Part shown: positions 20,186 through 33,212 of the stretch, piece after piece
Layout of the letters: every line of letters starts with the position of its first letter
How positions within the stretch are numbered: position 1 is the first letter of the stretch
Origin: Alphaproteobacteria bacterium
GTDB lineage: Bacteria; Pseudomonadota; Alphaproteobacteria; Micavibrionales; Micavibrionaceae
Direction: 5' to 3'
Length of the DNA: 64,000 bases
NCBI GenBank assembly: GCA_021775995.1
Contig: JAJFGS010000013.1
Span: 248,001 to 312,000 of the forward strand
The notes under the pieces: generated by a model
Seen by the model: only the letters and a program-made list of their open reading frames with translations
What the model was told of the DNA's origin: nothing
Database searches by the model: none
Position numbers and translations under genes: made by a program

Positions 20186-21283
20186 TTAAAACCGTGTGCT
20201 CAATGTCACCGAACCAAAAATACTGGGATTATCTTGTCCATCAAATTCTTTGCTACGGTAATTGAGGGTATAAGCCAATCTATAATCATCATAGGTGAAG
20301 GCAAGCCCTGCATTGGCATCCCCAACCAGATATTTTTTATCGACGCTTGGGCCGTTTTTAAACGTATTTCCATCTAGGAAAATATTACGTGCCATGGCAC
20401 GCCCATCAAGCCCAGCGAATAAATACCAGCTAAATTTATTATCGGGCGTATCGAAAAATCCTGTGCCAGCCATCGCAGGACGAACACGTGGTGGGGTGTC
20501 TTGTAATCTATTTTTAAAGGGACCAAAAGTGACCGTTGCCCCTGTACCGGCATAAGTATACACATTGCCTAAGGATAGATTGATACTTGGTTCTATGCGT
20601 AAACGAAAATCTGCAATGTTTTTTGTATACCAAGCAGGCCAGCGACGTTGCGCCGATAAAATTAATCCTGGTTCCAATTCTAATTGGTTGTCCCAACCCT
20701 TGGGAGAGGAAGAGTTTGCTATATGTTTATGAATAAATTTTTGTGATTGTTCCGCTAAAGATTCTGGACCAACGATACCTGCGGTAAATTCTAATTCATC
20801 AAGATGGTCATTGGTAACGGTTGTTAGGCCAATAGATCCATAAAGCCAGCCCGCCCAAGGTCGGTCATTTGGTTGGTTTGCGCTGATCCTGATATTTCTA
20901 GGTGTGTAAATATTCTGACCTATGGAGAAGAAGGTGCTGGTGGTTGAGTTTATATCAAAAGTAGGAATAGCATCGGCCAACTTATCAATCATAGGAGGCA
21001 TTGCTGTTTCAATGTCAAAATAAGTTAAGCGAACGCCGCTGGTATAGTTTTCATCCTTACCACCGCCAAATAAATCATTTTCAATAGAGAGACTAAGGTA
21101 GTTATTGTCATCGGCCTGTTGAATACGTTTTTTGAGCTTGTATTCAACGGTCTGCATATCATTTAAATCTTTTTTAATTCGACTTATCTGTTGTTGTCTT
21201 GTTGAATCATGATTGTCTTGCGCATAAGTTGGAAAAGCGCAAAGCATTAAAATAGTCAAAATCAATATTGTAGACTTCATCAT
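20186..21283 (-). CDS. LpxR-like outer-membrane lipid A deacylase (DUF2219)
   Basis: 365 residues. A signal peptide (about 1-21, ending TYA) is followed by a short coiled-coil (QQQISRIKKDLNDMQTVEYK) and a beta-barrel domain. SIENDLFGGGKDENYTSGVR carries the Asn-Asp and Ser/Thr positions of the LpxR active site, and TNDHLDELEFTAG the expected His and Glu. The end SIFGSVTLSTRF has the terminal aromatic of outer-membrane proteins. LpxR removes the 3'-acyloxyacyl chain of lipid A. The coiled-coil insert before the barrel is extra relative to the basic family. Confidence 0.85.
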   Translation of the reverse strand: MMKSTILILTILMLCAFPTYAQDNHDSTRQQQISRIKKDLNDMQTVEYKLKKRIQQADDNNYLSLSIENDLFGGGKDENYTSGVRLTYFDIETAMPPMIDKLADAIPTFDINSTTSTFFSIGQNIYTPRNIRISANQPNDRPWAGWLYGSIGLTTVTNDHLDELEFTAGIVGPESLAEQSQKFIHKHIANSSSPKGWDNQLELEPGLILSAQRRWPAWYTKNIADFRLRIEPSINLSLGNVYTYAGTGATVTFGPFKNRLQDTPPRVRPAMAGTGFFDTPDNKFSWYLFAGLDGRAMARNIFLDGNTFKNGPSVDKKYLVGDANAGLAFTYDDYRLAYTLNYRSKEFDGQDNPSIFGSVTLSTRF

Positions 21284-21469
21284 ACCAATGTAACTTTCAG
21301 GTCTTTCTTAAATGATAAACTTAAAGTGTTTTGTATAGACATAGCTCTGTTTATGCAATTAAAGCTTAAACATAATAATTTTTATAAGGCTATTCAATCT
21401 TTGCCATTTTTTCTCACAATCTAAATGTTAAATTAACCCTAAATGTGTTATTTTTAGGGGCGGGGAGCC

Positions 21470-23095
21470 ATGACTGTAGATAACCAGCTTAAAATTGCTA
21501 GAGATAGGTTTGTTGCTTTTTCTTTTGCGGCATCAGATTTTCTTTTGGAGGTAAATAAGGAAGGAAAAATAATCTTTTCTGCTGGAAAATCTCAATCTTT
21601 GACAGGGAAAGAGGCCGCAGAATTGGAAGGCGCTGATTGGCTGTCTGTTTTTTCTAAATCTGACCATAGTGATTTGAATGCTTTGTTAAAGGGAGCGCAG
21701 AGGGCAGGGCGCGTTGGCCCTTTGATGGTTCATATAGATAATGGTCAAACACAAGAAAAACATAAGGCTATGATTATGGGCATGACGATGCCGGAAAGCC
21801 CCAATATATTTTTATCTTTGAATGCAACGGCTGCTTTTTTTGATTTTTTAGAGGTGGGCGATGTTCATGACTCCCGTCTTTTGGATGAAAAGCAATTTGA
21901 GGAATCTGCCATCAAAGCCTTTGCTGCGGCGAAACGTGAAGGCAAAAATTTAGACGTTACTTTTTTAGAGGCAGATAAGATTGAAGAATATAAAAAATCT
22001 TTGTCTGTTGATGAAGCCAATAATTTTAATGAGAATTTTAATGCTGTTTTAAAAGAGCAATCTTATGAAGGCGGTACGGCAAGTCAGGTTGACGATAATA
22101 AGTATGCCATTATCCATGACGCAGAAATAACGCCGGATTTTATTGAAAAGAAGATTCAGCAACTTGTTCAACGAACCTCTCCAAGTTCTAAAGGGATGGA
22201 TATAAAAACAAAAACGGTTGAAGCCGATATGGAATCGTTGAATGAGAGGGAAGCCCGTCGCGCGCTTCTCTATACAATAAATCAAATTGAAAAAAAGGGA
22301 TTGGATGCGGCTGGTGATGATTTAAAGCAAGGTTTTGATGATTACTTAAATGAAAATGCCGCAAAAATTACAAATTTAAAAAAGATTGTCGGTCTTCAGG
22401 CGTTTAAGTTGAATTACCAACCGATTGTTTTTATTCCTGATGAAACATTATGCCATTACGAGGCACTTGTGCGTTTTGATGCTGAGACTTCCCCCTATGA
22501 ATTAATTATATTTGGTGAGGATATTGGGCTGGCGCCTGATATTGATATATCAATTTTAAAACAAGCCATTGGCTTCATTAAAAATGAGGAGACAAAAGGC
22601 AATTCTGTGCGTATCGCGGTCAATATATCTGGGCAATCTATACAGAGCGAGAGCTTTTTTAAGGCTGTATTGGAAGCGATAGAGAAAACGCAATGCAGCC
22701 CCAAAAATCTTTTATTCGAAATTACCGAGAGTACACAAATTGAAGATTTGGATAAGGTGAATGGTTATTTACAAAAGCTACGTGATAAAAAATTCGAAGT
22801 TTGTTTGGATGATTTTGGCGCAGGCTCTGCCTCGTTCCAATATTTAAATGCGCTGGAGATTGATTGTGTTAAAATTGATGGAAAATATATTCGTGATGCG
22901 TTGAATTCTTCTCGTGATGAGGCGATGGTCCGTAATTTGGTACGTATGTGTAAGGATTTGAACGTGACCACGATCGCCGAAATGGTTGAGACGCAAGAGC
23001 AACTGGATTATTTAATAAAAATTGGGGTTGATAAAGCGCAAGGCTGGTTGTTCGGTAAGCCAAGCAAGAAAGCAGCGTATAAGAAGCGGGGTTGA
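21470..23095 (+). CDS. PAS and EAL domain protein (cyclic di-GMP phosphodiesterase)
   Basis: 541 residues. A PAS-like sensor at about 10-120 (FLLEVNKEGKIIFSAGKSQS), a long middle region of unclear fold, and an EAL domain from about 310. EAL motifs are intact: YEALVRF, VRIAVNISGQS, FEITES, CLDDFGAGSASFQYL, VKIDGKYI and the late EMVET and KAQGWLFGKP. This predicts active hydrolysis of c-di-GMP to pGpG. No GGDEF motif or membrane helix. Lipid-facing LpxR lies divergently upstream. The stop is followed 2 bases later by a copy of the tRNA-Leu 3' end. Confidence 0.9.
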   Translation: MTVDNQLKIARDRFVAFSFAASDFLLEVNKEGKIIFSAGKSQSLTGKEAAELEGADWLSVFSKSDHSDLNALLKGAQRAGRVGPLMVHIDNGQTQEKHKAMIMGMTMPESPNIFLSLNATAAFFDFLEVGDVHDSRLLDEKQFEESAIKAFAAAKREGKNLDVTFLEADKIEEYKKSLSVDEANNFNENFNAVLKEQSYEGGTASQVDDNKYAIIHDAEITPDFIEKKIQQLVQRTSPSSKGMDIKTKTVEADMESLNEREARRALLYTINQIEKKGLDAAGDDLKQGFDDYLNENAAKITNLKKIVGLQAFKLNYQPIVFIPDETLCHYEALVRFDAETSPYELIIFGEDIGLAPDIDISILKQAIGFIKNEETKGNSVRIAVNISGQSIQSESFFKAVLEAIEKTQCSPKNLLFEITESTQIEDLDKVNGYLQKLRDKKFEVCLDDFGAGSASFQYLNALEIDCVKIDGKYIRDALNSSRDEAMVRNLVRMCKDLNVTTIAEMVETQEQLDYLIKIGVDKAQGWLFGKPSKKAAYKKRG

Positions 23096-23097
23096 TA

Positions 23098-23115
23098 TTG
23101 GTGCGGGTGGTTGGA
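23098..23115 (-). repeat. Truncated copy of tRNA-Leu 3' end (att-like direct repeat)
   Basis: These 18 bases (TTGGTGCGGGTGGTTGGA on plus) match 23785-23802, the 3' end of the tRNA-Leu gene including encoded CCA, with one mismatch. Both copies have the same orientation, 687 bases apart, and enclose the unknown gene 23126-23719. This is the arrangement left when an element integrates into the 3' end of a tRNA gene. Confidence 0.75.
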
Positions 23116-23125
23116 AACTGCACCC

Positions 23126-23719
23126 TCACAATTCGGTGCCGTGGAATTTAAAAAATCTCTCAATTGATATTGTAACTAATGTAAGGCGTAAAGAAACGAC
23201 GTCACTTTTATGCTTCTCTATCGTCTTATTGTCTTCTGTAAAGTTAGAAATGTTTGTTTTTAGATATTCTTCGAGAGGTTTATGAGTAATGCTAAAAGCC
23301 TCATAAAGGGTAGTAAAATATTTTTTTAAACATTCCTTACTAGGATTCTCTCCATAACAGCCATAACTAACATTAACTGTCCAAGCATCTCCGACTGACC
23401 TCATATTGGACATTACAGTATTCAATAAATCTACTTCCTCCTTTTTAGGAGAAGCAACTAATTTATATTTGCTTGTGACTATATTTAAATTCCTTGATAA
23501 TTCAGTCCATTTTTCCTGATTAACACCACTATTTGTATAGCTCTTAATCTCAATTAAAGTATCTGACACGCTTTCAAAAGCTTTGCTTTGTTCAACTCTT
23601 TGAACTTTTCGCTCATCACTACTTTTTATAAAAGTATATGTAGCTAGCGAACCACAAAGAACGGATAAAATTATTAAGAGTATTGTTTTATGGTCTAATT
23701 TCTTTATTTCTTCTGTCAT
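23126..23719 (-). CDS. Hypothetical membrane-anchored protein, 197 aa, between tRNA-Leu repeats
   Basis: One N-terminal membrane helix (ILLIILSVLCGSLATYTFI, about residues 14-32) followed by a hydrophilic, largely helical domain with four cysteine-poor turns. No catalytic motif recognised. The base composition looks more AT-rich than the flanking EAL gene. It is the only gene between the direct repeats of the tRNA-Leu 3' end (23098-23115 and 23785-23802), so I infer it is an acquired single-gene cassette. Confidence 0.65.
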   Translation of the reverse strand: MTEEIKKLDHKTILLIILSVLCGSLATYTFIKSSDERKVQRVEQSKAFESVSDTLIEIKSYTNSGVNQEKWTELSRNLNIVTSKYKLVASPKKEEVDLLNTVMSNMRSVGDAWTVNVSYGCYGENPSKECLKKYFTTLYEAFSITHKPLEEYLKTNISNFTEDNKTIEKHKSDVVSLRLTLVTISIERFFKFHGTEL

Positions 23720-23785
23720 ATCTTTTACTTTTAAATATTAAAAGCTTTTCTCAAACATTCGATATTTCTACTTAGTATAAATACT

Positions 23786-23872
23786 TGGTGCGGGTGGTCG
23801 GACTTGAACCGACACGTCCTTGCGGACACTAGATTTTGAGTCTAGCGCGTCTACCAATTCCACCACACCCGC
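23786..23872 (-). tRNA. tRNA-Leu (CAA)
   Basis: Read on the minus strand, the acceptor arms GCGGGTG and CACCCGC pair perfectly, then discriminator A and encoded CCA. The anticodon stem TCTAG/CTAGA encloses the loop CTCAAAA, giving anticodon CAA (reads UUG). A long variable arm (TGTCCGCAAGGACGT) and the T-arm TTCAAGT loop fit a class II leucine tRNA. 87 bases including CCA. Its 3' end is duplicated at 23098-23115. Confidence 0.95.
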
Positions 23873-23883
23873 ATTATCAAGAG

Positions 23884-23912
23884 AGGCCGTATAAGATAGA
23901 CGGCCTTTTTTA
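23884..23912 (+). terminator. Intrinsic terminator, plus strand
   Basis: Stem AGGCCGT (23884-23890) with ACGGCCT (23900-23906), followed by a T-run on the plus strand only. No plus-strand gene lies directly before it: the nearest is the EAL gene ending at 23095. It may be that gene's terminator, now distant because of the 687-base insertion. Confidence 0.7.
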
Positions 23913-23988
23913 GCTTAAATTCGTGCATATATTCAAGTTTTTAATAAAGTTTCTTGGGTTTTGAGAGTGGGCTGTGTTTAATAGCTGA

Positions 23989-24618
23989 ATGGAATCAATG
24001 ACAACACGCACACTGACGCAACTCTTAAGTGATCTTAAATCCCATATTCAGGATGATAACGTGACAGTAAAGGCGTTGTTGGAAGAATTTCATGAGCGTG
24101 GCTTTGGTTTTTTCTTATTTTTGATAGCCCTGCCTGCGGCTTTACCTGTTCCTGCTTTGGGGCTTAGTACTGTTATTGCGTTTCCCTTACTGATATTAAC
24201 GGCGCAGCAGGCCATGGGGCGTCATACAGTATGGGTTCCCAAAAAATGGCGGCAAAAAAAAATATCACGAGAGAAAATTGATGGGTTTATCAAAACCGCT
24301 GAACCATGGATTAGGCGTTTAGAATATTTTATTCGTCCACGTCTGTCTTTTGTAACGCAAGGATTGTTTTCTAACATGATTGGGGTGGCGGGTTTTGCTA
24401 TGGCTTTGGCCGTCGCGGTTCCCTTACCGCTCACCAATACAGTGCCAGCCTTTGGTATTGCCCTCATGGCTATCGGTATATTAATGCGGGATGGTTTGGC
24501 GGTGATAGGGGGGCTGTTGATAGGGCTGAGCTGGATTATTTCACTGTTAAGTTTTGTGATTATATTTGGTCCAGAAGGTATTGATATTGCAAAAGATTTT
24601 ATAAAGGGCTTTTTTTAA
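23989..24618 (+). CDS. exoD: ExoD family membrane protein
   Basis: 209 residues. Matches ExoD: an N-terminal helical lead, then hydrophobic segments LFLIALPAALPVPALGLST, FPLLILTAQQAMG, a cytoplasmic WVPKKWRQKKIS loop, and a repeat-like second half ALAVAVPLPLTNTVPAFGIA. ExoD is linked to exopolysaccharide production and alkali tolerance in rhizobia; the biochemical function is not established. It is 15 kb from the polysaccharide locus in this window, so a link is only suggestive. Confidence 0.88.
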   Translation: MESMTTRTLTQLLSDLKSHIQDDNVTVKALLEEFHERGFGFFLFLIALPAALPVPALGLSTVIAFPLLILTAQQAMGRHTVWVPKKWRQKKISREKIDGFIKTAEPWIRRLEYFIRPRLSFVTQGLFSNMIGVAGFAMALAVAVPLPLTNTVPAFGIALMAIGILMRDGLAVIGGLLIGLSWIISLLSFVIIFGPEGIDIAKDFIKGFF

Positions 24619-24802
24619 TGTTGCCATACGCGCAGGCGCGAGGGCAATATGATATAAAACTATGGATGTCATCCCGTTGGTATGAGCGTTAGCGAATTGA
24701 CACGAACGGGATCTGGAAAAGAGAAAAGCCTTGCTTTTCACATATGGATCCCCGCCGTTTAAGCTTGCTACGCAAGCCGCGGGGATGACAAGAGAGGAAA
24801 AT
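24619..24802. repeat. Mosaic palindromic repeats between exoD and dsbB
   Basis: Contains TCATCCCGTT...AACGGGATCT (about 24669-24715) and GGATCCCCGCCG...GCCGCGGGGATGACA (about 24747-24790), with inner arms AAGCTTGCTACGCAAGC. Same class as 18580-18701 and 20040-20157. The repeat ends about 12 bases before the dsbB start, so the open frame running back to 24731 crosses the repeat and should not be used. Confidence 0.7.
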
Positions 24803-25327
24803 ATGAAGGATTTTATTACAAAATTATTGAGTTGTCACAGAGCCATGCCGCTTATCATGGTGTTTGTTGCGGCGGCATCATTGGCTATGGCGTTTATGGC
24901 GCAATATGTTTTTGGGTTGGAACCTTGCATATTGTGCCTTATTCAGCGATATCCTTACGCCATTGTTATTGCGTTGGGGCTGATTGGTTTCTTATTCTCC
25001 TGTAAATGTAAAAAAGCCGTGAGCGTGACGATGGGGTTAATTGGTCTGACGTTTCTTACCAATAGTGCGATTGCATTTTATCACACAGGGGTGGAGCTTC
25101 ATTGGTGGAAATCGTTTTTAGAGAGTTGTTCCGTACCAAAATTGGCGGGCAACATGGATCAAATTCTAACCGATATTCAAAACCGCACAAAGGCTGTGCG
25201 GTGTGATGAAATTCCTTGGGCAGATCCTATCCTTAATCTATCCATGGCAAATTATAATGTTATTTTCTGTCTTGGCTTGGCCGTTATGGCTTTTATTTCT
25301 GCCAGACTTATCTGGAAGAAAGTTTAG
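24803..25327 (+). CDS. dsbB: Disulfide bond formation protein DsbB
   Basis: 174 residues from the ATG at 24803, which has AGAGAGGA just upstream. An inner-membrane four-helix protein that reoxidises periplasmic DsbA and passes electrons to quinone. The first cysteine pair is C42/C45 in PCILCLIQRYPY, the second C109 and C134 in ESCSVPKL and AVRCDEIPW, both typical. No dsbA is in the window. It overlaps the convergent 25324-25596 gene by 4 bases. Confidence 0.92.
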   Translation: MKDFITKLLSCHRAMPLIMVFVAAASLAMAFMAQYVFGLEPCILCLIQRYPYAIVIALGLIGFLFSCKCKKAVSVTMGLIGLTFLTNSAIAFYHTGVELHWWKSFLESCSVPKLAGNMDQILTDIQNRTKAVRCDEIPWADPILNLSMANYNVIFCLGLAVMAFISARLIWKKV

Positions 25328-25596
25328 ATAAACTTATAAGTGTGAACCATAGCCTTCTTAGTTGTCTCATCTACAGAGAAAGTGCATTCAACTTTTTTCC
25401 CTACCTGATCTTTCAAATTAGACAATAAGGGGTTTTGTTTTTTAATGTGCGCAGAAACGTAACAGCCTCCTTCTACAGGAACCTCTTGGCCAGGGTCAAG
25501 CATTACAATAAAACCTGGGTTTTTTGTGCTGGCTTCTCCAAAAGAACCTTTAATTTCTCCTATTCTTGTATATATATCCATAGCTACACGCCCCAT
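25324..25596 (-). CDS. Hypothetical protein, 90 aa
   Basis: A small protein with beta-rich character (GFIVMLDPGQEVPVEGGCYV, KKVECTFSVDETTKKAMVHTY). No known motif. Two starts are possible: ATG at 25596 or, preceded by GGGGCG, the ATG five codons later at 25581. It converges with dsbB with a 4-base overlap. Confidence 0.55.
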   Translation of the reverse strand: MGRVAMDIYTRIGEIKGSFGEASTKNPGFIVMLDPGQEVPVEGGCYVSAHIKKQNPLLSNLKDQVGKKVECTFSVDETTKKAMVHTYKFI

Positions 25597-25666
25597 AATT
25601 TTTAAATTTCACAAAGGCTTAAAGAACGGGCGGCCTTATGTCAACAACTTTTCTGACATAATCTTT

Positions 25667-25697
25667 AAAAAAACCCGCCAATAAAGCGGGGTTTTTA
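25667..25697 (-). terminator. Terminator hairpin (copy 1) after the 40-residue ORF
   Basis: AAACCCGC (25671-25678) pairs with GCGGGGTTT (25686-25694) around CAATAAA, flanked by A- and T-runs. Sequence and surroundings are similar to the terminator at 25942-25972, including TAAATTAGT beside it, so the two 3' regions are duplicates. Confidence 0.85.
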
Positions 25698-25729
25698 AAT
25701 TAGTGTTTTTTCTAAGCTTTGATTGTCGT

Positions 25730-25852
25730 CTAAAGTCCCAAAACTGTTATTAAGCCTGTAAAGCCCATAAAAATTCCGTAATAGAATAAGTAAAAACCGA
25801 CAGATTGTTTCAGGTTCCGCTCTTTGGCGAAGTTAAAAAGGTCATCAAACAT
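25730..25852 (-). CDS. 40-aa membrane microprotein, shortened paralogue of the upstream gene
   Basis: Minus-strand ATG at 25852 preceded by AGGA. Residues ~18-40 form a hydrophobic helix (VGFYLFYYGIFMGFTGLITV). The N-terminus aligns by eye with that of the neighbouring 117-residue protein (M-hydrophobic-D..., then FY and G.(T/S)...LG). Directly after the TAG the same frame reads TTIKA-stop, identical to the neighbour's C-terminus. I infer a tandem duplicate that lost its middle. It may be a functional microprotein or a remnant. Confidence 0.5.
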   Translation of the reverse strand: MFDDLFNFAKERNLKQSVGFYLFYYGIFMGFTGLITVLGL

Positions 25853-25941
25853 GATGTGCGTCCTATGTAAATATTTTTGAGTTATGAGTATTTAAGGACG
25901 TATGAATAAAAAGTCAAGCGTTTCTGCGGTTTTCAGAGAAT

Positions 25942-25972
25942 AAAAAAGCCCGCCAATGAGGCGGGCTTTCTA
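25942..25972 (-). terminator. Terminator hairpin (copy 2) after the 117-residue membrane protein gene
   Basis: Perfect 10-bp stem AAAGCCCGCC (25945-25954) with GGCGGGCTTT (25960-25969), loop AATGA, T-run on the minus strand. Ends transcription from the gene at 25995-26348. Confidence 0.9.
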
Positions 25973-25994
25973 AATTAGTATTTAGCTCTTAAGT

Positions 25995-26348
25995 CTAAGC
26001 CTTAATAGTCGTCAAAATTGCGACTGGGATAAGACCAAGCATTACGTCTGTTGTGTAAGCGAGATACACAGCCACAACTGTAAGTAACACAGCAAAAATA
26101 TCGCTTGTGAGCTTACGATGTGTGAGTATGAGACCCGATACAAACAACGTAAAGATTGAGCCAACTAGAGTATGTAATGTTGAACCAGCGAAGAATGAAG
26201 CACTTCCTCCGTCAACAATACCGACCATACCTAAGAAATGTAACAATGTAGTAGAAATACCTACTAACACGACTACTGACAATACATAGAACCAAAAAGC
26301 TCCCATTGTCGATCTTACGTGACCTACGTCTAATATTTTATCAATCAT
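25995..26348 (-). CDS. Hypothetical membrane protein, 117 aa
   Basis: AGGAGG lies 6 bases before the ATG at 26348, which decides the start. About four hydrophobic helices: FWFYVLSVVVLVGISTTLL, a glycine/serine turn, LHTLVGSIFTLFVSGLIL, FAVLLTVVAVYLAY and MLGLIPVAILTTI. No known domain recognised. Has its own terminator at 25942-25972 and a shortened paralogue downstream on the same strand. Confidence 0.75.
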   Translation of the reverse strand: MIDKILDVGHVRSTMGAFWFYVLSVVVLVGISTTLLHFLGMVGIVDGGSASFFAGSTLHTLVGSIFTLFVSGLILTHRKLTSDIFAVLLTVVAVYLAYTTDVMLGLIPVAILTTIKA

Positions 26349-26407
26349 TTGCAACCTCCTTGTTTGCGTTTAAAAAAACTGAAACAATGTCTTGATTTTT
26401 TCACCCT

Positions 26408-27010
26408 TTAATAGGCGTCAAGTTCACTATCCCAGTACAGAAAATCCCCCCAGCTCTTATGTAAGAAATTTGGTGGGAATCTTCGTCCTGTTTCCTGGAG
26501 TTCATATATAGTTGGCTCGCGAGGCTCTGCCATCGGGTGCATATCGCACTCATGGGGCGTTTTGTTTCCTTTTCTAAGGTTACAGGGCTTGCAAGCCGAG
26601 ACTATATTGTCCCAGGATGTTCTTCCGCCACGTGATCTTGGGATCACATGATCAAATGTTAAGAGTTTGGTTTTACTGATTTCGCCGCAATATTGGCAAT
26701 GCCATGCATCGCGCAAAAATACATTATAGCGTGTGAATGAGGGGCTATGTGATGTTGGCACATATTCTTTCAGTGCAATCACACTTGGTAATTTGAATTC
26801 TGTTGTTGGGGAATGAATATAACGGTCATATTCGGACACAACTGTCACCGTATCACGAAAAATGGCCTTCACAGCTTCCTGCCAAGGCCATAACGATAAG
26901 GGGTAGTAGCTAAGCGGTCTAAAATCTGCATTGAGAATTAAGGCCGGACAGCTTTCTAACGGCATCGGATGGGGAGGACTATCTCCAGTTGGTAATAAGC
27001 TTGTTATCAC
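26408..27010 (-). CDS. HNH endonuclease family protein
   Basis: 200 residues. The HNH nuclease core is CQYCG...LTFDHVIPRSRGG...WDNIVSACKPCNLRKGNKTP, with two CxxC zinc knuckles. The N-terminal LNADFRPLSYYPLSLWPW segment is characteristic of a widespread stand-alone family in alphaproteobacteria, often chromosomally fixed and not part of a restriction system. Role uncertain. AGGAG precedes the start. Confidence 0.9.
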   Translation of the reverse strand: MITSLLPTGDSPPHPMPLESCPALILNADFRPLSYYPLSLWPWQEAVKAIFRDTVTVVSEYDRYIHSPTTEFKLPSVIALKEYVPTSHSPSFTRYNVFLRDAWHCQYCGEISKTKLLTFDHVIPRSRGGRTSWDNIVSACKPCNLRKGNKTPHECDMHPMAEPREPTIYELQETGRRFPPNFLHKSWGDFLYWDSELDAY

Positions 27011-27282
27011 AATAATCTCCTATACTTCTTGTAGAGCCGTCATGTCCGCAAGCGGAAGGACGACGTAGAAACCTACGGAAAGTAGGGGGAGATCTTGCGG
27101 GGGACTTATTAAAAAGATCTCGCCTTCTATACCCCTATTATACCATGAAAACATGGCTGACCCAACAAATACGCGGGTTACAGGAAATTCGCCAGAAGTT
27201 AATAAATTAGGTTAAGTTATATGAAAATTGTTTCTCAACCTAGGGTTGTTTTGTAATATTATTACAACTTATTAACAGAATC
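27011..27282. other. Gene-free region upstream of the HNH gene
   Basis: 272 bases. The part next to the HNH gene (27040-27115) contains GTCC-GCAAGCGG-AAGGAC style pairing and AGATCTTGCGGG/AGATCTCGCC elements and may form a leader structure for the minus-strand HNH transcript. A 20-codon plus-strand frame (27153-27215, MADPTNTRV...) has no clear ribosome site. Nothing firmly identified. Confidence 0.4.
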
Positions 27283-27957
27283 TTATAACGAATTGTTATC
27301 ATTAGTTATTTTTGATAAGAAATCTGCGCCGCTCTCTATTCCTTCTCCATCAATGGAATGATCAAGGTGAGGGGTGGTATGACCAGTGACGGAAAAGCCA
27401 TTTTTGAGGAAAATATCGCGCGTTTGGTGATAAGCAGTCACAGGAACAACAGTGTCTGATTCGCCGTGAATGAGGTGAATAGGGGGCTTATTTTGGGTTT
27501 TTAGCTCATTTTCACCGACGAAAGCACCAGAATAGCCCAAAATACCAGATATTTTGCCTTTTCGGCGGGGACCTACATATAGGCTCATCATTGTTCCTTG
27601 AGAAAAACCGACCAAAGTTAAGTTTTCATCCGTCAAAGAGTGTTCTTTGAGAAGGTCATCTAGGTATTCATTTAGTATCGGAGCGGCTTGTTCTGCCCCT
27701 TCACGAAGTTTTTCAGGAGTGTATTCCGCTAAAGAGAACCATTGCCTCATATTTTCGTTGGCCATACCTGCTTCACAAGGAAAAGGGGCGTCCGGAGAGG
27801 CAAATAAAGCTTCTGGAACGGCATCTTGCCAATAAGGGGCGAGAGAAATGAGATCACGCCCATTTGAGCCATAGCCATGAAGCAGGACAATAAGTTGTGA
27901 AGGATGCCCTCCTGAATGAGGGCCTTGCGTATAATGATTTAATTTTGTCATGTTCAA
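27283..27957 (-). CDS. Carboxylesterase/phospholipase-type alpha/beta hydrolase
   Basis: 224 residues of the acyl-protein thioesterase-like family. The start has the oxyanion loop LIVLLHGYGSNGRD. The nucleophile is S119 in GFSQG, followed by the Asp in GESDTVVP and the His in HLDHSI. Cytoplasmic, no signal peptide. Likely hydrolyses short-chain esters; the natural substrate is unknown. Divergent from the iron permease gene, sharing a 110-base promoter region. Confidence 0.9.
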   Translation of the reverse strand: MNMTKLNHYTQGPHSGGHPSQLIVLLHGYGSNGRDLISLAPYWQDAVPEALFASPDAPFPCEAGMANENMRQWFSLAEYTPEKLREGAEQAAPILNEYLDDLLKEHSLTDENLTLVGFSQGTMMSLYVGPRRKGKISGILGYSGAFVGENELKTQNKPPIHLIHGESDTVVPVTAYHQTRDIFLKNGFSVTGHTTPHLDHSIDGEGIESGADFLSKITNDNNSL

Positions 27958-28027
27958 TCCATAGCATGAGAATAAGTTGTAAAAAAGTTGTTTTGAGGGA
28001 TTGATTTTTACAAACTGACTTGTATGT

Positions 28028-28050
28028 TATTGCAAATCATTCTCAATTAA
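28028..28050. promoter_or_regulatory. Fur-box-like operator upstream of the iron permease
   Basis: TTGCAAATCATTCTCAATT resembles a Fur/Irr-type iron box (reverse: AATTGAGAATGATTTGCAA, compare the AATGAGAATNATT core). It lies 18 bases before the FTR1 start, next to the TTTTAGGA ribosome site, consistent with repression when iron is plentiful. It could also affect the divergent esterase gene. Confidence 0.6.
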
Positions 28051-28067
28051 CTTTTTAGGATATATAA

Positions 28068-28850
28068 ATGTTAGAAACTCTCGTTATTACTTTTCGTGAA
28101 GGTTTAGAAGCTTTTTTAATTGTCGCAATCACCATCGCTTACCTTATCCAAACGAAACGCAAAAATTTGGTTAAGCCAGTTTTTTTTGGCGCGGCAACGG
28201 CCATTCTTATTAGTTTAACGGCGGGCTGGCATATTGCGGAATTGGCGGAAGATCCAATCATGGAAGGGGCATTAGCTATTCTTGCGGGTGCGCTTGTGGC
28301 TTCTATGACTTACATGATGATTAAGAATGCAAAAAATATTAAAGCTAAGATTTCTGAAAATATAGAACAGAGTGCCGAGAAGGAAGGTATGAAAGCCGCC
28401 ATTGGTGTTTTTATCTTTACGGTTGTAATGATTGCGCGCGAAGGTATGGAAACAGCGATGATGTTGGGCGCCATGTCTAGCACTATTAATGCTGGTGATA
28501 TTATGATGGGGGCTTTATTAGGCTTTGCTGGTGTTGGTGCCATTGGTTATCTCTGGATATCTCAAAGTGCGCGGATTAATTTGAGATTGTTCATGCAAGT
28601 GACGGGCGCATTCTTGATGTTGTTCTGTGTTCATTTGTTTGTTTATGGTTTCCATGAGCTAACCGAAGCAAGCGCGATACCGTTCATTGATAATTTCTAT
28701 TGGCATACATTGACGGAGCCGTTAGAGCCAAGCGAGCCAGTTGGTAAAGCGATTACAGTTATGATGCTGGTAATTCCGTGTGCGTGGTTAATGGTAGGGT
28801 ATGTCCGTGAGAAACTTACGCATAAGCCAGTCTTTAGCGCGGCGGAGTAG
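28068..28850 (+). CDS. FTR1 family iron permease
   Basis: 260 residues, seven hydrophobic segments expected. The two iron-binding REGLE-type motifs are FREGLEAFLI (about residue 10) and AREGMETAMM (about residue 125), which define the FTR1/EfeU group that moves ferric iron through the inner membrane. No EfeO or EfeB partner follows, so it may work alone or with proteins outside the window. A Fur-like box precedes it. Hairpins follow at 28871. Confidence 0.92.
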   Translation: MLETLVITFREGLEAFLIVAITIAYLIQTKRKNLVKPVFFGAATAILISLTAGWHIAELAEDPIMEGALAILAGALVASMTYMMIKNAKNIKAKISENIEQSAEKEGMKAAIGVFIFTVVMIAREGMETAMMLGAMSSTINAGDIMMGALLGFAGVGAIGYLWISQSARINLRLFMQVTGAFLMLFCVHLFVYGFHELTEASAIPFIDNFYWHTLTEPLEPSEPVGKAITVMMLVIPCAWLMVGYVREKLTHKPVFSAAE

Positions 28851-28870
28851 GGTGTAAGTTCCAATGTTGT

Positions 28871-28937
28871 AACCCCGCACATGTTGCGGGGTCTTTGCAA
28901 GAAACGAAGAGACCCCGTAATGAATACGGGGTTTCAG
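28871..28937 (+). terminator. Two GC-rich hairpins after the iron permease gene
   Basis: ACCCCGCAACATGT-type stem (CCCCGCA at about 28873-28879 with TGCGGGG at 28884-28890, followed by TCTTT), then GACCCCGTA/TACGGGGTTTC at about 28911-28935. The first can terminate the permease transcript. The second abuts the uvrA-like fragment at 28929-28967 and faces both ways. Confidence 0.65.
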
Positions 28938-28967
28938 AAAGTCACCTGTATAACGGCCTTTGGCTTT
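28929..28967 (-). pseudogene. Orphan copy of the uvrA 3' coding end
   Basis: These 39 bases match 30396-30434 inside the 3' end of uvrA at 35 positions, same orientation. On the minus strand the fragment reads KAKGRYTGDFLKP; the real UvrA reads [13 protein letters not shown]. It lies 1467 bases from the intact copy, with three unknown genes between. I infer a leftover tail from an insertion at the uvrA 3' end. Confidence 0.7.
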
Positions 28968-29374
28968 TACGGCTTTGGCTTTATTGAGTCTAAATCTATT
29001 ATTGTTATAACTTGATTAAAATTCTCTTCGAAATCTTTGGGCGGAATATCAGGCAGGGGTGTTCCAGTCTGCTCAAAGTGATCGCTCATGCCCTTGTATA
29101 TATTTATACAAAAGGTCGAATCTGGAACTCTCCTCATCTCGCCTGTAGATGTTCTAACAAATGCAGAGAAAGCAGAAGCCCTGCGAATATGGACAGGTTT
29201 CATACCGACATCATTTGTCTTCTCAGCCACCGCATATCCTTCATCATTACTACAGCTAACTGTGAGGTTAAATTTTGGCTCTTTCCCATTATAGGTCATC
29301 CCTGCGTCAACGACTTGCGGAGAAGCAAGAGCCAGGGTCAGTATGCCAATATTGAATGTTTTAGATAGTTTCAT
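28967..29374 (-). CDS. Hypothetical secreted protein, 135 aa
   Basis: An N-terminal signal peptide (about 1-24, cleaving near VVDAG) then a ~110-residue periplasmic domain with two cysteines (SCSNDEGY and DSTFCINIY) that could pair. No family recognised. Its last codons (SIKPKP) run to the edge of the orphan uvrA tail, so the stop may have been created at the insertion junction. Probably in one unit with the lipoprotein gene upstream. Confidence 0.65.
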   Translation of the reverse strand: MKLSKTFNIGILTLALASPQVVDAGMTYNGKEPKFNLTVSCSNDEGYAVAEKTNDVGMKPVHIRRASAFSAFVRTSTGEMRRVPDSTFCINIYKGMSDHFEQTGTPLPDIPPKDFEENFNQVITIIDLDSIKPKP

Positions 29375-29438
29375 CGCTCTATTATCTTTTTATTATTGTT
29401 AGGAGGCCGTTTTAAACCTGGATTTTTAATATGTCAAC

Positions 29439-29921
29439 CTAAACCTTTTCAAGGGCAGGTCGATATCGGGGCGCCTTTTTGTGTGGCTCTTCATCGCTTT
29501 CTTCAACTGGCTTATCTTCGCAATCTTTATCCTGCATTTTTTTATTACGAACCCATGCTTGGCAAGCCTTATCCTGCATTTCCTCCAAAACGTAGCCTGT
29601 CGAAGGCAATTCTGCCTTTGAAGGATAAGGGGACTTATCCAATCCCGTTTTATATTCTGGGAATGCAATCTTATATTTTTCTAGACTTTTTTTATAGAAT
29701 TCCTTGTCCTCAGCTGTCGCTGTTGCAACAGGTTTACATGTGACATTGTCAGAACCGTTTTTAAAAAAGGTAATGTCACATACTGCGCTCCTGTCAAAAT
29801 CCAGCACCCAGGCTACGGATTCCTTTTCAAGAGGTGCAGGTTCCTGTGGTGCGCCAGTAGATGCGCATCCCGAAAAAAGTGCTGCTAAAAAATAGGGGGC
29901 AGATGCCCAAAACATATTCAT
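29439..29921 (-). CDS. Hypothetical lipoprotein, 160 aa
   Basis: Signal peptide with lipobox LFSGC, lipidated Cys at residue 19, followed by a Pro/Glu-rich linker (TGAPQEPAPLEKES). The mature part has a few cysteines (AVCDITF, VTCKPV, DKACQAW, DKDCEDK) and a charged acidic C-terminus (ESDEEPHKKAP). No family recognised. Lies within the segment bounded by the duplicated uvrA 3' ends. Confidence 0.65.
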   Translation of the reverse strand: MNMFWASAPYFLAALFSGCASTGAPQEPAPLEKESVAWVLDFDRSAVCDITFFKNGSDNVTCKPVATATAEDKEFYKKSLEKYKIAFPEYKTGLDKSPYPSKAELPSTGYVLEEMQDKACQAWVRNKKMQDKDCEDKPVEESDEEPHKKAPRYRPALEKV

Positions 29922-30002
29922 ACTCGCTATCCGTCTAAAATTTAAAATATCTGTCTTTTTAGCACTTCTATTAATTATGTCAATGATATATTTAAGGGCT
30001 GC

Positions 30003-30032
30003 TTGACAATTAACGAAGCCGATTGTTATGGT
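30003..30032 (+). promoter_or_regulatory. Candidate sigma-70 promoter for the 92-aa gene
   Basis: TTGACA at 30003-30008 and TATGGT at 30027-30032 with an 18-base spacer, 36 bases before the ATG at 30068. A perfect -35 box but an imperfect -10 box. Confidence 0.4.
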
Positions 30033-30067
30033 AAAAAATACATTGAAACATCATAGAGGCAATAAAG

Positions 30068-30346
30068 ATGAGTACATTATTTGAAGTCATTAAAGAGGAT
30101 ACTCAACTTATCCTAACTTTCAATCAACTGATGTTGGAAGGGTTTACGGTAGATAGAGTTTATAATGGCGGAACAGACTTAATGTTTTCAATGGAGCATG
30201 AGAAAAATAATGAAAATGCTGTAATTAGGTGCCCTGACTTAAAAGACCAAGATTCTGGAACAATTCAAAGAGCCCTAAGCTCTCAACAAGGGCGCCCTGA
30301 AGAACAATCTCTCATAAAGTATAACCAAGCAATGTGCTTATCGTAG
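30068..30346 (+). CDS. Hypothetical protein, 92 aa
   Basis: A small soluble protein without recognised motifs; starts with an acidic helix (TLFEVIKEDTQLILTFNQLM). A purine-rich GAGGCAATAAAG precedes the ATG. It converges on uvrA, ending 10 bases before the uvrA stop, and sits inside the segment bounded by the duplicated uvrA 3' ends. Function unknown. Confidence 0.6.
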   Translation: MSTLFEVIKEDTQLILTFNQLMLEGFTVDRVYNGGTDLMFSMEHEKNNENAVIRCPDLKDQDSGTIQRALSSQQGRPEEQSLIKYNQAMCLS

Positions 30347-30356
30347 GGTTTATAAA

Positions 30357-33212
30357 TTAAGCCGCTTTTTTTGTTGGTTTCTTTTTATCCAAGATGGGTT
30401 TTAGAAACTCACCTGTATAGCTGCCTTTGGCTTTGGCGATGTCTTCGGGTGTGCCAGAAGCCAAGATTCTTCCGCCTTTATGGCCGCCTTCGGGGCCGAT
30501 ATCTATAATATAGTCGGCGGTTTTAATAACTTCCAAGTTATGTTCGATCACAACGACGGTGTTGCCTTGTTCAACAAGGCTTTGCAGAACTTCCAAAAGT
30601 TTGCGGACATCTTCAAAATGTAAACCCGTTGTGGGTTCATCCAAGATATAAAGTGTTTTACCCGTTGAGCGCTTTGAGAGTTCTTTAGAAAGTTTCACGC
30701 GCTGGGCTTCACCACCTGACAACGTATTGGCGGGTTGCCCGACTTTAATATAATCAAGACCGACTTGTTTTAATGTTTCCATCTTGTCACGAATGGAGGG
30801 GACAGCTTTGAAAAACTCGGCGGCATCTTCAATGGTCATGTCTAAAATATCAGCAATGTTTTTACCTTTAAATTTAATATCAAGCGTTTCACGGTTGTAA
30901 CGCTTGCCTTCACAGGTTTCACAAGTCACATAAACATCGGGTAAGAAATGCATTTCAATTTTAATGAGGCCGTCGCCTGCGCAAGCCTCGCAACGACCGC
31001 CTTTGACATTGAAAGAAAAGCGGCCTGGGCCGTAGCCACGAACTTTGGCCTCTGGTAATCCTGCGAACCATTCACGAATAGGGGTGAACGCGCCTGTATA
31101 GGTAGCGGGGTTGGAGCGTGGTGTGCGACCAATCGGTGATTGGTTGATGTCGATAACTTTATCAAGGAACTCTAATCCTTCAATTTTTTTGTAAGGTAGC
31201 GGCATCTCACGTGACTTCATTAATTTTTGTGAAGCGGCACGGTATAATGTGTCGATTGTAAAAGTTGATTTCCCGGAACCTGAAACACCTGTGATACAGG
31301 TCATCGTACCAAGTGGAATTTTACCCGTTACATTTTGCAGGTTGTTTCCTGATGCGCCACTGAGTTTTAAGTTTTGTCCTTTTTTACCGGCGCGACGTTT
31401 AGCGGGTATGGCGACTTCGCGCTTGCTTGTTAGGTAATCTGCCGTAATAGAGTTCTTAGCCTTCATGACTTGTTTGGGTGTGCCGCTGGCAATGATTTGC
31501 CCGCCGTGAACCCCAGCCCCCGGGCCAATGTCTATGAGGTGGTCGGCAGACAAAATAGCGTCCTCATCATGTTCAACAACAATAACGGTATTGCCCAAGT
31601 CACGTAAGTGACGCAGCGTTTCAAGTAAGCGGTGATTGTCACGTTGATGCAGGCCGATGGAAGGTTCATCAAGGACATAGAGAACACCCGTCAGACCAGA
31701 ACCTATTTGTGAAGCGAGACGGATGCGCTGGCTTTCGCCGCCAGAGAGTGTGGCGGAAGAGCGGGATAAAGATAAATAATCAAGACCAACATTCATAAGA
31801 AACGTCAGACGTTCATTAATTTCTTTTAAAATTTTATCGGCGATTTGTAGGCGTTGCTTGGTGAGTTTTTTGTTTATTTTTTTAAACCAATCATCTGCCT
31901 CTTCAATTGAAAGTTGTGAGATTTCAGAAATATGTTTACCATCAATCTTAACCGCAAGCGCTTCGGGTTTCAGGCGGTTGCCTTCGCAGGTTTCGCAAGG
32001 GCTGCTGGTTTGATAACGGCTTAACTCGTCACGCGCACGGTTGCTGTCTGTTTCAACCAGACGGCGGGCTAGGGAAGGGATAACGCCTTCAAAAGGTTTG
32101 TTACTTTTCCATGTGCTTTCAGTTTTGCTTTCGTAGGTGATAGGGATCACGGTATCACCAGAACCGTAGAGGATGGCATCCTGTTCTGACTTTTTAAGTT
32201 TGTTCCAAGCTGTGGTTGTTTTGAATTTATAATGTTTGGCAACGGCCTCCATCGCCTGCATATAAAAAGGCGCAAAGTTTTTTGACCAAGGCTCAACGGC
32301 TCCTTTCTTGATTGATTTTGTTGGGTCAGGGACAATCAAGTCCGGGTCTATCAACATTTTTTGCCCTAACCCATCACAAGTCGGGCAGGCACCATGCGGT
32401 GAGTTGAAAGAAAAGAGACGCGGTTCAATTTCTGCAATGGTAAATCCAGAAACAGGACAGGCGAATTTTTCAGAGAATAATTTTTGTTCATTTGTCTTTG
32501 CATTTTCAGCAATGCAAAGACCGTCGGCGAGCTTCAGCGCGGTTTCTACAGAGTCTGCCAAGCGTATGGCGATGTCGTCACGAATGACAATGCGGTCAAC
32601 GACGACCTCAATATCATGTTTTAGTTTTTTGTTAATTTTAGGGAGTTCATCAATTTCATATAACTCGCCATCGATTTTGACGCGTTGAAAACCTTTGGCC
32701 TGTAATTCTTTGAACTCTTTTTTATATTCACCTTTGCGGCCTCGCACGATGGGGGCGAGAACGTAAAGTTTGGTGCCATCACCCATCTCCATGATTTGAT
32801 CAACAATCTGACTGACGGTTTGACTTTCAATCGGGAGTCCTGTTGTGGGCGAGTAGGGAATACCAACCCGTGCCCAAAGCAGACGCATATAATCGTGAAT
32901 TTCTGTGACGGTTCCCACGGTAGAGCGAGGATTACGGCTGGTGGTTTTTTGCTCAATAGAAATGGCGGGCGATAATCCTTCGATGCTGTCGACATCTGGT
33001 TTTTGCATCATCTCTAAGAATTGACGGGCGTAGGCGGACAAGCTTTCGACATAGCGGCGTTGCCCTTCGGCATAGATGGTGTCAAAGGCGAGCGATGACT
33101 TACCCGAGCCAGAAAGGCCTGTGACAACGATCAATTTGTCACGCGGCATATCAACATCGATATTCTTTAAATTATGTTCGCGCGCCCCGCGCACTGAAAT
33201 CTCTGTAAGCAT
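30357..33212 (-). CDS. uvrA: Excinuclease ABC subunit A
   Basis: 951 residues, the normal UvrA length. The damage-recognition ATPase of nucleotide excision repair; it loads UvrB at lesions. Two ABC modules are complete: Walker [13 protein letters not shown] and [12 protein letters not shown], signature [12 protein letters not shown] and [12 protein letters not shown], Walker [14 protein letters not shown] and [13 protein letters not shown]. Zinc-finger cysteines appear as CEACAGDG and CETCEGKR. Its 3' end is duplicated at 28929-28967. Divergent from ssb, as in many bacteria. Confidence 0.98.

Follow-up and report, generated by a model that had tools for sequence, protein, structure and literature searches.

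In the Islander approach, the ends of an integrated element are marked by an intact tRNA gene together with a displaced 3' fragment of that gene in the same orientation, and a candidate must carry an integrase and extend over at least 2 kb, according to the excerpted text of the source (PMC4383910). A CIME (cis-mobilizable element) is described, likewise in excerpt, as an element that lacks the genes for integration and transfer while both attL and attR are kept (PMC5704250). The locus in our study resembles the Islander pattern, since its tRNA gene is intact and a displaced piece of the gene's 3' end lies downstream, pointing the same way. It differs from that pattern in that the interval lacks an integrase and measures only 687 bp, which is less than 2 kb, so that the Islander filters, as worded in the excerpt, would reject it. 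Excerpts of the literature on single-gene non-autonomous tRNA elements and on integrase-less tRNA islets contained nothing on point.

We argue that positions 23098-23802 of the window, by which we mean the whole 64 kb stretch of DNA that was analysed, are probably the decayed, integrase-less remnant of an element that integrated at the 3' end of tRNA-Leu(CAA). The features on which this reading draws are listed in Table 1. Among the genomes compared, G000 is the window's own genome, and G012 and G060 belong to other genera of the same bacterial family.

Table 1. Features of the tRNA-Leu(CAA) locus, in window coordinates.
Feature	Position	Strand	Basis
EAL-domain gene, outer flank of the putative attR, convergent with the tRNA gene	21470..23095	+	Pfam EAL, E 2.4e-56
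Orphan copy, read as attR (TCCAACCACCCGCACCA + A)	23098..23115	-	17/18 identical to tRNA end
Inner arm GGTGCAGTT	23116..23124	-	7/9 complementary to acceptor-side arm ACCCGCACC, 9-7-9 layout
Gene of the 197-aa protein with N-terminal hydrophobic stretch, in the direction of the tRNA gene	23126..23719	-	ORF list; profile searches
A+T-rich leader of 65 bp between repeat and gene	23720..23784	-	No arm sites recognised by eye
attL-side copy, tRNA 3' end (TCCGACCACCCGCACCA) plus one base, A	23785..23802	-	Sequence comparison
tRNA-Leu(CAA), target gene, intact	23786..23872	-	ARAGORN; RF00005 match
Hairpin with T run, a possible terminator for plus-strand transcripts that run from EAL through the tRNA gene	23881..23909	+	Fold
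ExoD gene, locus marker; its place upstream of the tRNA gene is conserved in relatives	23989..24618	+	

On the forward strand the two copies read TTGGTGCGGGTGGTTGGA at 23098-23115 and TTGGTGCGGGTGGTCGGA at 23785-23802. They agree in 17 of 18 bases, have the same orientation and lie 687 bp apart, with the orphan copy downstream of the tRNA gene. The repeat of the tRNA-Leu 3' end reported in the preliminary description is thus real at both positions. With up to three mismatches allowed, these two copies were the sole matches in the 64 kb window, and dinucleotide shuffles of the window gave a mean of 0.10 matches and never two. A 17-base pattern of the tRNA end with one mismatch found only these two in the genome, where its control had no match. 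A 16-base core with one mismatch also gave two matches only in the 2.0 Mb genome, but this count is weak by itself because a control pattern read backwards gave two as well. When the interval was shuffled 200 times by mononucleotides, no 18-mer matched the tRNA end at more than 13 bases; the real copy scored 16 in this test, as the probe lacked the base after CCA. Outside the 18-mer, neither flank showed significant identity (P about 0.45 and 0.49), and a longer tRNA fragment of the kind seen in G003 or G008 was therefore rejected.

The 197-aa ORF takes up most of the 687-bp interval. Its start codon lies 66 nt from the tRNA end, and 10 bp separate the gene from the orphan copy. The insert has a GC content of 31% vs 39% for the window, and the GC3 of the gene is 0.25 vs 0.35 for the EAL gene. 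In line with the preliminary description, there is one gene between the copies, with an N-terminal hydrophobic stretch, and no integrase: the interval contained no integrase gene and no transfer genes, integrase debris was not seen in it, and the PF00589 matches of the window's genome all lie elsewhere. The 197-aa protein had no Pfam match at E up to 1, and tblastn against phages and plasmids gave none at E up to 1. No relatives were found in viral contigs, PADLOC reported nothing for the protein, and the best matches to PHROG and to solved structures both had an E value of 0.22. On these database negatives, the idea of a phage, plasmid or known defence protein was rejected. The C-terminal part aligned with an NCBIfam tyrosine recombinase model at E 0.029 (14 bits, cut-off 220); we set aside integrase debris as an explanation, because the G043 homologue that aligns with it is a free-standing protein. 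A single-sequence structure prediction reached a mean pLDDT of 45.2, too poor for a structure search.

The gene was present in only 2 of 143 genomes, namely the window's own, where it has one copy, and G043, where the protein has 28% identity. A two-row profile of the protein, searched against 142 genomes of the order, matched the same two genomes. Instead of being syntenic in all relatives, a pattern named beforehand as contrary to an insertion, the gene is absent from all nine congeners (the genus counts 10 genomes, the window's included). The preliminary description had also suggested a search for homologues adjoining tRNA genes; the sole homologue found (L147 5982-6557, G043:C21) sits between genes named by eye as msrA and dnaA, without flanking repeats. 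Hence, a 197-aa gene of this kind can arrive by other routes.

A terminator scan found nothing between the tRNA end and the start of the 197-aa gene, although the same scan misses the hairpin at 23881-23909. The 66-nt distance and the lack of a scanned terminator make read-through from the tRNA into the gene likely, and we predict that the gene is probably expressed in this way from the tRNA promoter.

Integrase-bearing elements at the same target were found elsewhere in the family. A pattern search of 104 family genomes for second copies of the tRNA end identified G012 and G060. In G012 (G012:C3), tRNA-Leu(CAA) stands beside exoD and dsbB and is followed by genes for a 633-aa tyrosine integrase, a putAbiC protein and a DUF4062/STAND protein, with the end copy 8.6 kb from the tRNA gene. 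The integrase matches PF00589 and, below the cut-off, DUF6538. The element of G060 (G060:C1) likewise adjoins exoD and dsbB; tRNA-Leu(CAA) is accompanied by an integrase 63% identical to that of G012, and the end copy lies 8.2 kb away. In both genomes the end copies match in 17/17 bases from TCC to CCA, and the two elements have non-coding end sequences in common. The window's own genome contains a further element at tRNA-Leu(TAA) (L211 1542-10853; G000:C5:932041-941352), which has a 38% identical integrase and an end copy of 17/17 at 9.2 kb. Its cargo consists of cyclase, E1-E2, JAB and 2TM-effector genes, a set that we take to be CBASS-like. In these three elements, 64-86 bp separate the tRNA gene from the start of the integrase gene. 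The distance from the last likely gene to attR is ~210 bp in G012, 315 bp in G060 (assuming that a 106-aa ORF there is no gene) and 280 bp in the tRNA-Leu(TAA) element, against 10 bp in the window.

The cargo of the G012 element, with its putAbiC/AbiP-like gene and DUF4062/STAND gene, is defence-like as well. The 900-aa DUF4062/STAND protein (L144 7844-10546, G012:C3) matches the PADLOC candidate PDC-S60 at E 3.6e-113. The G012 integrase pattern found nothing in viral contigs, and no literature was found on DUF6538 in combination with an integrase. A literature search on alphaproteobacterial tRNA-Leu genomic or defence islands with a tyrosine recombinase returned none matching most of these themes.

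Integrases of the right clan (E 1e-20 or better) occur in 30 of the 104 family genomes. Of 38 matches, 30 loci were covered, and a tRNA or tmRNA gene is found at 25 of these 30 loci. Downstream DNA was covered for 22 of these 25 loci, the other three running into contig ends. An end copy of 16-17 out of 17 bases was present at a distance of 4.7-14.5 kb in 13 of the 22. The nine loci without an end copy include seven that hit a contig end within 2.2-10.2 kb and two that were covered over ~20 kb. Shuffles of these stretches, one per stretch and 23 with the window counted, yielded no end copies.

The layout of the repeats points in the same direction. In G012, G060, the tRNA-Leu(TAA) element and the window, the identity between attL and attR starts exactly at the TCC after the T loop and reaches CCA. 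Over 13 elements, the identity starts at this same base in five, 1-2 bases earlier in six, and 5-8 bases earlier in two. Because attL/attR identity starts at TCC, we infer that 23796-23802 is the 7-bp overlap. The single mismatch between the two copies of the window falls within this presumed overlap (TCCGACC vs TCCAACC). Tyrosine recombinases usually want identity within the overlap, and hence later drift must be assumed if the locus is a remnant.

Next to the overlap, attR has an inner stretch of 9 nt that mirrors the acceptor arm, giving a 9-7-9 arrangement that reads GGTGCAGTT TCCAACC ACCCGCACC in the window, CGTGCGGTC TCCGACC ACCCGCACC in G012 (with the same acceptor letters as the window), GGTGTCGTA TCCGACC ACCGGCACC in G060 and GGTAGGGAT TCCCCCC AGCCCCACC in the tRNA-Leu(TAA) element. 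A mirror match of 6-7/9 was found in 6 of 13 elements, with 7/9 in the window. The layout was defined on four cases, the window among them; in the ten elements examined after it was defined, at least 6/9 was reached in three and not in seven. Over the 13 elements, arms matched their own acceptors at a mean of 4.46/9 vs 3.21 when re-paired, and none of 10,000 permutations reached the observed mean. The window's arm is not specific, because it scores 7/9 with the acceptors of G012 and G060 as well, and 6/9 with three others. Within the insert, two of its 661 positions match at 7/9 or better, namely the inner arm and one overlapping position; over the window, such matches occur at 0.09% of positions on both strands. 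Copying of the tRNA end would leave the inner arm unexplained, because the arm lies outside the tRNA. From the shared start base, the extent and the inner arm, 23098-23115 reads as an attR. Beyond the core, a comparison by eye showed no sequence shared between the interval and the right-clan elements at tRNA-Leu(CAA) in other genera, nor any resemblance to the right end and leader sequences of G012 and G060.

The outer flank is less straightforward. As the preliminary description stated, the orphan copy begins 2 bases past the EAL stop, which ends at 23095, 3 bases ahead of the CCA complement. The empty site that it predicted, with the EAL stop joined directly to the tRNA gene, was not found among the congeners. 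An EAL orthologue (61-71% identity) is present in seven of the nine congeners; G003 and G005 have only paralogue-level matches. Only G002, G006 and G009 carry EAL and a full tRNA-Leu(CAA) on one contig. There, EAL lies 1-3 kb downstream of the tRNA gene in the same direction, with the start codon rather than the stop of EAL on the side of the tRNA gene. The EAL gene of G008 follows a 57-bp tRNA fragment, likewise in the same direction, and in G001, G004 and G007 the EAL and tRNA-Leu(CAA) genes are on separate contigs. Beyond EAL, the window has LpxR in place of the congeners' UvrA (UvrA named by eye). A comparison of window positions 20186-33212 with L080, L082, L087, L089, L091 and L092 showed that the order of EAL, tRNA-Leu, LpxR and UvrA varies among congeners.

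The orientation of EAL, opposite to that in three congeners, indicates that the region has also been rearranged. Judged from this gene order, the convergent EAL of the window is a product of rearrangement, perhaps one that also took place in G007, its sister genome according to a tree of eight joined proteins with gaps (support 0.969). The EAL and tRNA neighbours of G007 are compatible with the window's arrangement combined with one additional inversion, and its contigs, C101 and C126, end before the interval. Given the rearranged flank and the missing empty site, an insertion beside a pre-existing EAL stop is unproven. A plus-strand terminator had been proposed to serve EAL. The hairpin with its T run is indeed there (-14.2 kcal/mol vs -5.1 +/- 2.3 for mononucleotide shuffles). 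It was missed by the terminator scan, whose loop limit of 8 is probably too small for its 9-nt loop. By eye, no hairpin was seen at the equivalent place in seven congeners, a pattern in keeping with, but no proof of, a function tied to convergent EAL transcripts.

Copies of tRNA ends are not confined to this locus. We scanned 32 RF00005 tRNA genes of the window's genome for end copies of at least 14/17, and matches that fell within another tRNA gene were not counted. Most genes were scanned over ~8 kb downstream; three near contig ends had only 0.3-2 kb, and tRNA-Leu(TAA) had more. A downstream end copy was found at 3 of the 32 genes, all of them tRNA-Leu: at 687 bp in the window, at 9.2 kb for tRNA-Leu(TAA) and at 117 bp for a third gene. 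In 160 shuffles there were none. At this third tRNA-Leu (L294 13-216; G000:C5:858962-859165), 28 bp of the 3' end are repeated 117 bp downstream. Across the family, 2 of 26 full tRNA-Leu genes, those of the window and of G003, have an end copy within 1.5 kb or less (the 26 come from 30 of 41 matched places, four of which lacked a full tRNA). In G003, 55 bp of the 3' half of tRNA-Leu(CAA) are copied 305 bp apart (L083 2322-2713; G003:C33). Similar fragments of ~55-57 bp occur at L090 2612-2668 (G008:C11) and at about L145 3041-3095 (G014:C24), G014 being of another genus. These longer tRNA-Leu(CAA) repeats start near the anticodon loop, and perhaps reflect a second class of integrase and attachment site at the same tRNA gene. 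A CACAGCC motif after the tRNA gene is common to G001, G003 and G014 (by eye).

The slot behind tRNA-Leu(CAA) is variable in content. G001 has an AhpC-like gene there (Pfam). Judged by eye from translations, the slot holds RTX-like proteins in G002 and G007 (in opposite directions in the two), a small ORF together with an ArsC-like gene in G006, two membrane proteins in G009 and other small ORFs in G004.

How might the locus have come about? By site-specific tyrosine recombination, an integrative element would have inserted itself at the 3' end of tRNA-Leu(CAA), with strand exchange within a 7-bp overlap that presumably starts at the TCC just after the T loop. The incoming DNA would have restored the tRNA gene and displaced the old 3' end, which became the attR at 23098-23115. 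Deletion would later have removed the integrase along with most of the element, so that a single cargo gene, 66 nt downstream of the tRNA gene and pointing the same way, is left together with the two attachment sites. This gene would be co-transcribed by read-through from the tRNA promoter, and mobility would be lost. The start point, extent and orientation of the repeat, the inner arm and the lineage-specific gene are most simply explained by site-specific insertion.

Alternatively, illegitimate recombination could have copied the tRNA end to the 3' end of EAL during the rearrangement that inverted EAL, trapping the 197-aa gene. The outer boundary of the orphan copy does coincide with the rearrangement breakpoint, where EAL is inverted and LpxR replaces UvrA. 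We nevertheless regard this as rather unlikely, as it explains neither the exact TCC start shared with the G012, G060 and tRNA-Leu(TAA) elements, nor the inner arm, nor the end copies at tRNA-Leu genes of the same genome, one of which has an integrase. Chance similarity is very improbable. The copy is only 18 bp long without significant extension, and in the genome the 16-base core has no more matches than its backwards control; yet only 0.10 matches are expected at three mismatches in 64 kb, the best of 200 interval shuffles reached 13/18, and the copy has the right orientation and position downstream of the tRNA gene.

The preliminary description left open whether the integrative element is minimal or decayed. 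A true minimal non-autonomous element would be made up of a single gene between its two att sites, and a related integrase acting in trans would mobilise it. Its compact layout (65-bp leader, gene, 10 bp, attR), in which no debris was seen, would suit such an element, as would the right-clan integrases in 30/104 family genomes, including one in the window's own. Yet the gene is single-copy in its genome and occurs in 0/9 congeners, the resident integrase sits at tRNA-Leu(TAA) with an overlap of TCCCCCC vs TCCGACC, and no ends like those of G012 or G060 were seen by eye. We therefore consider a minimal element unlikely. It is still more doubtful that the 687-bp unit is a working single-gene cassette that travels from one tRNA 3' end to another, with the integrase supplied by a related element and expression from the tRNA promoter. 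Decay is favoured over a minimal design because there is no integrase, the gap on the right is only 10 bp, and the end sequences of G012 and G060 are missing.

In favour of a decayed remnant, other short scars are present as well, of 117 bp at another tRNA-Leu of the same genome and of 305 bp at tRNA-Leu(CAA) of G003. Our results suggest that tiny scars flanked by tRNA repeats, with one gene or none, can be assigned to an integrase clan by the start of attR and the inner arm, also where the integrase itself has been lost. Such scars would be uncounted in the Islander catalogue, because intervals below 2 kb or without an integrase are rejected according to the excerpted text (PMC4383910). Small scars may be one route for single genes to settle behind tRNA promoters.

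Compared to the elements of G012, G060 and tRNA-Leu(TAA), the window has the same repeats from TCC to CCA and the same kind of inner arm at attR, and in G012 and G060 also the same target gene. It differs from them in size and content, since these elements measure 8.2-9.2 kb and have an integrase as the first gene behind the tRNA gene, while the interval has neither. Likewise, the defence-like genes of the G012 and G000 elements have no counterpart left in the window. The interval resembles a CIME in keeping what appear to be both att sites at a tRNA 3' end without integrase or transfer genes, and differs from one in that it measures only 687 bp with one gene; a CIME would moreover descend from an ICE or IME and be open to mobilisation in cis after accretion. 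In form, the interval could thus be called CIME-like. Insertion at tRNA ends is a known kind of event, and the window shows what looks like a very small form of it.
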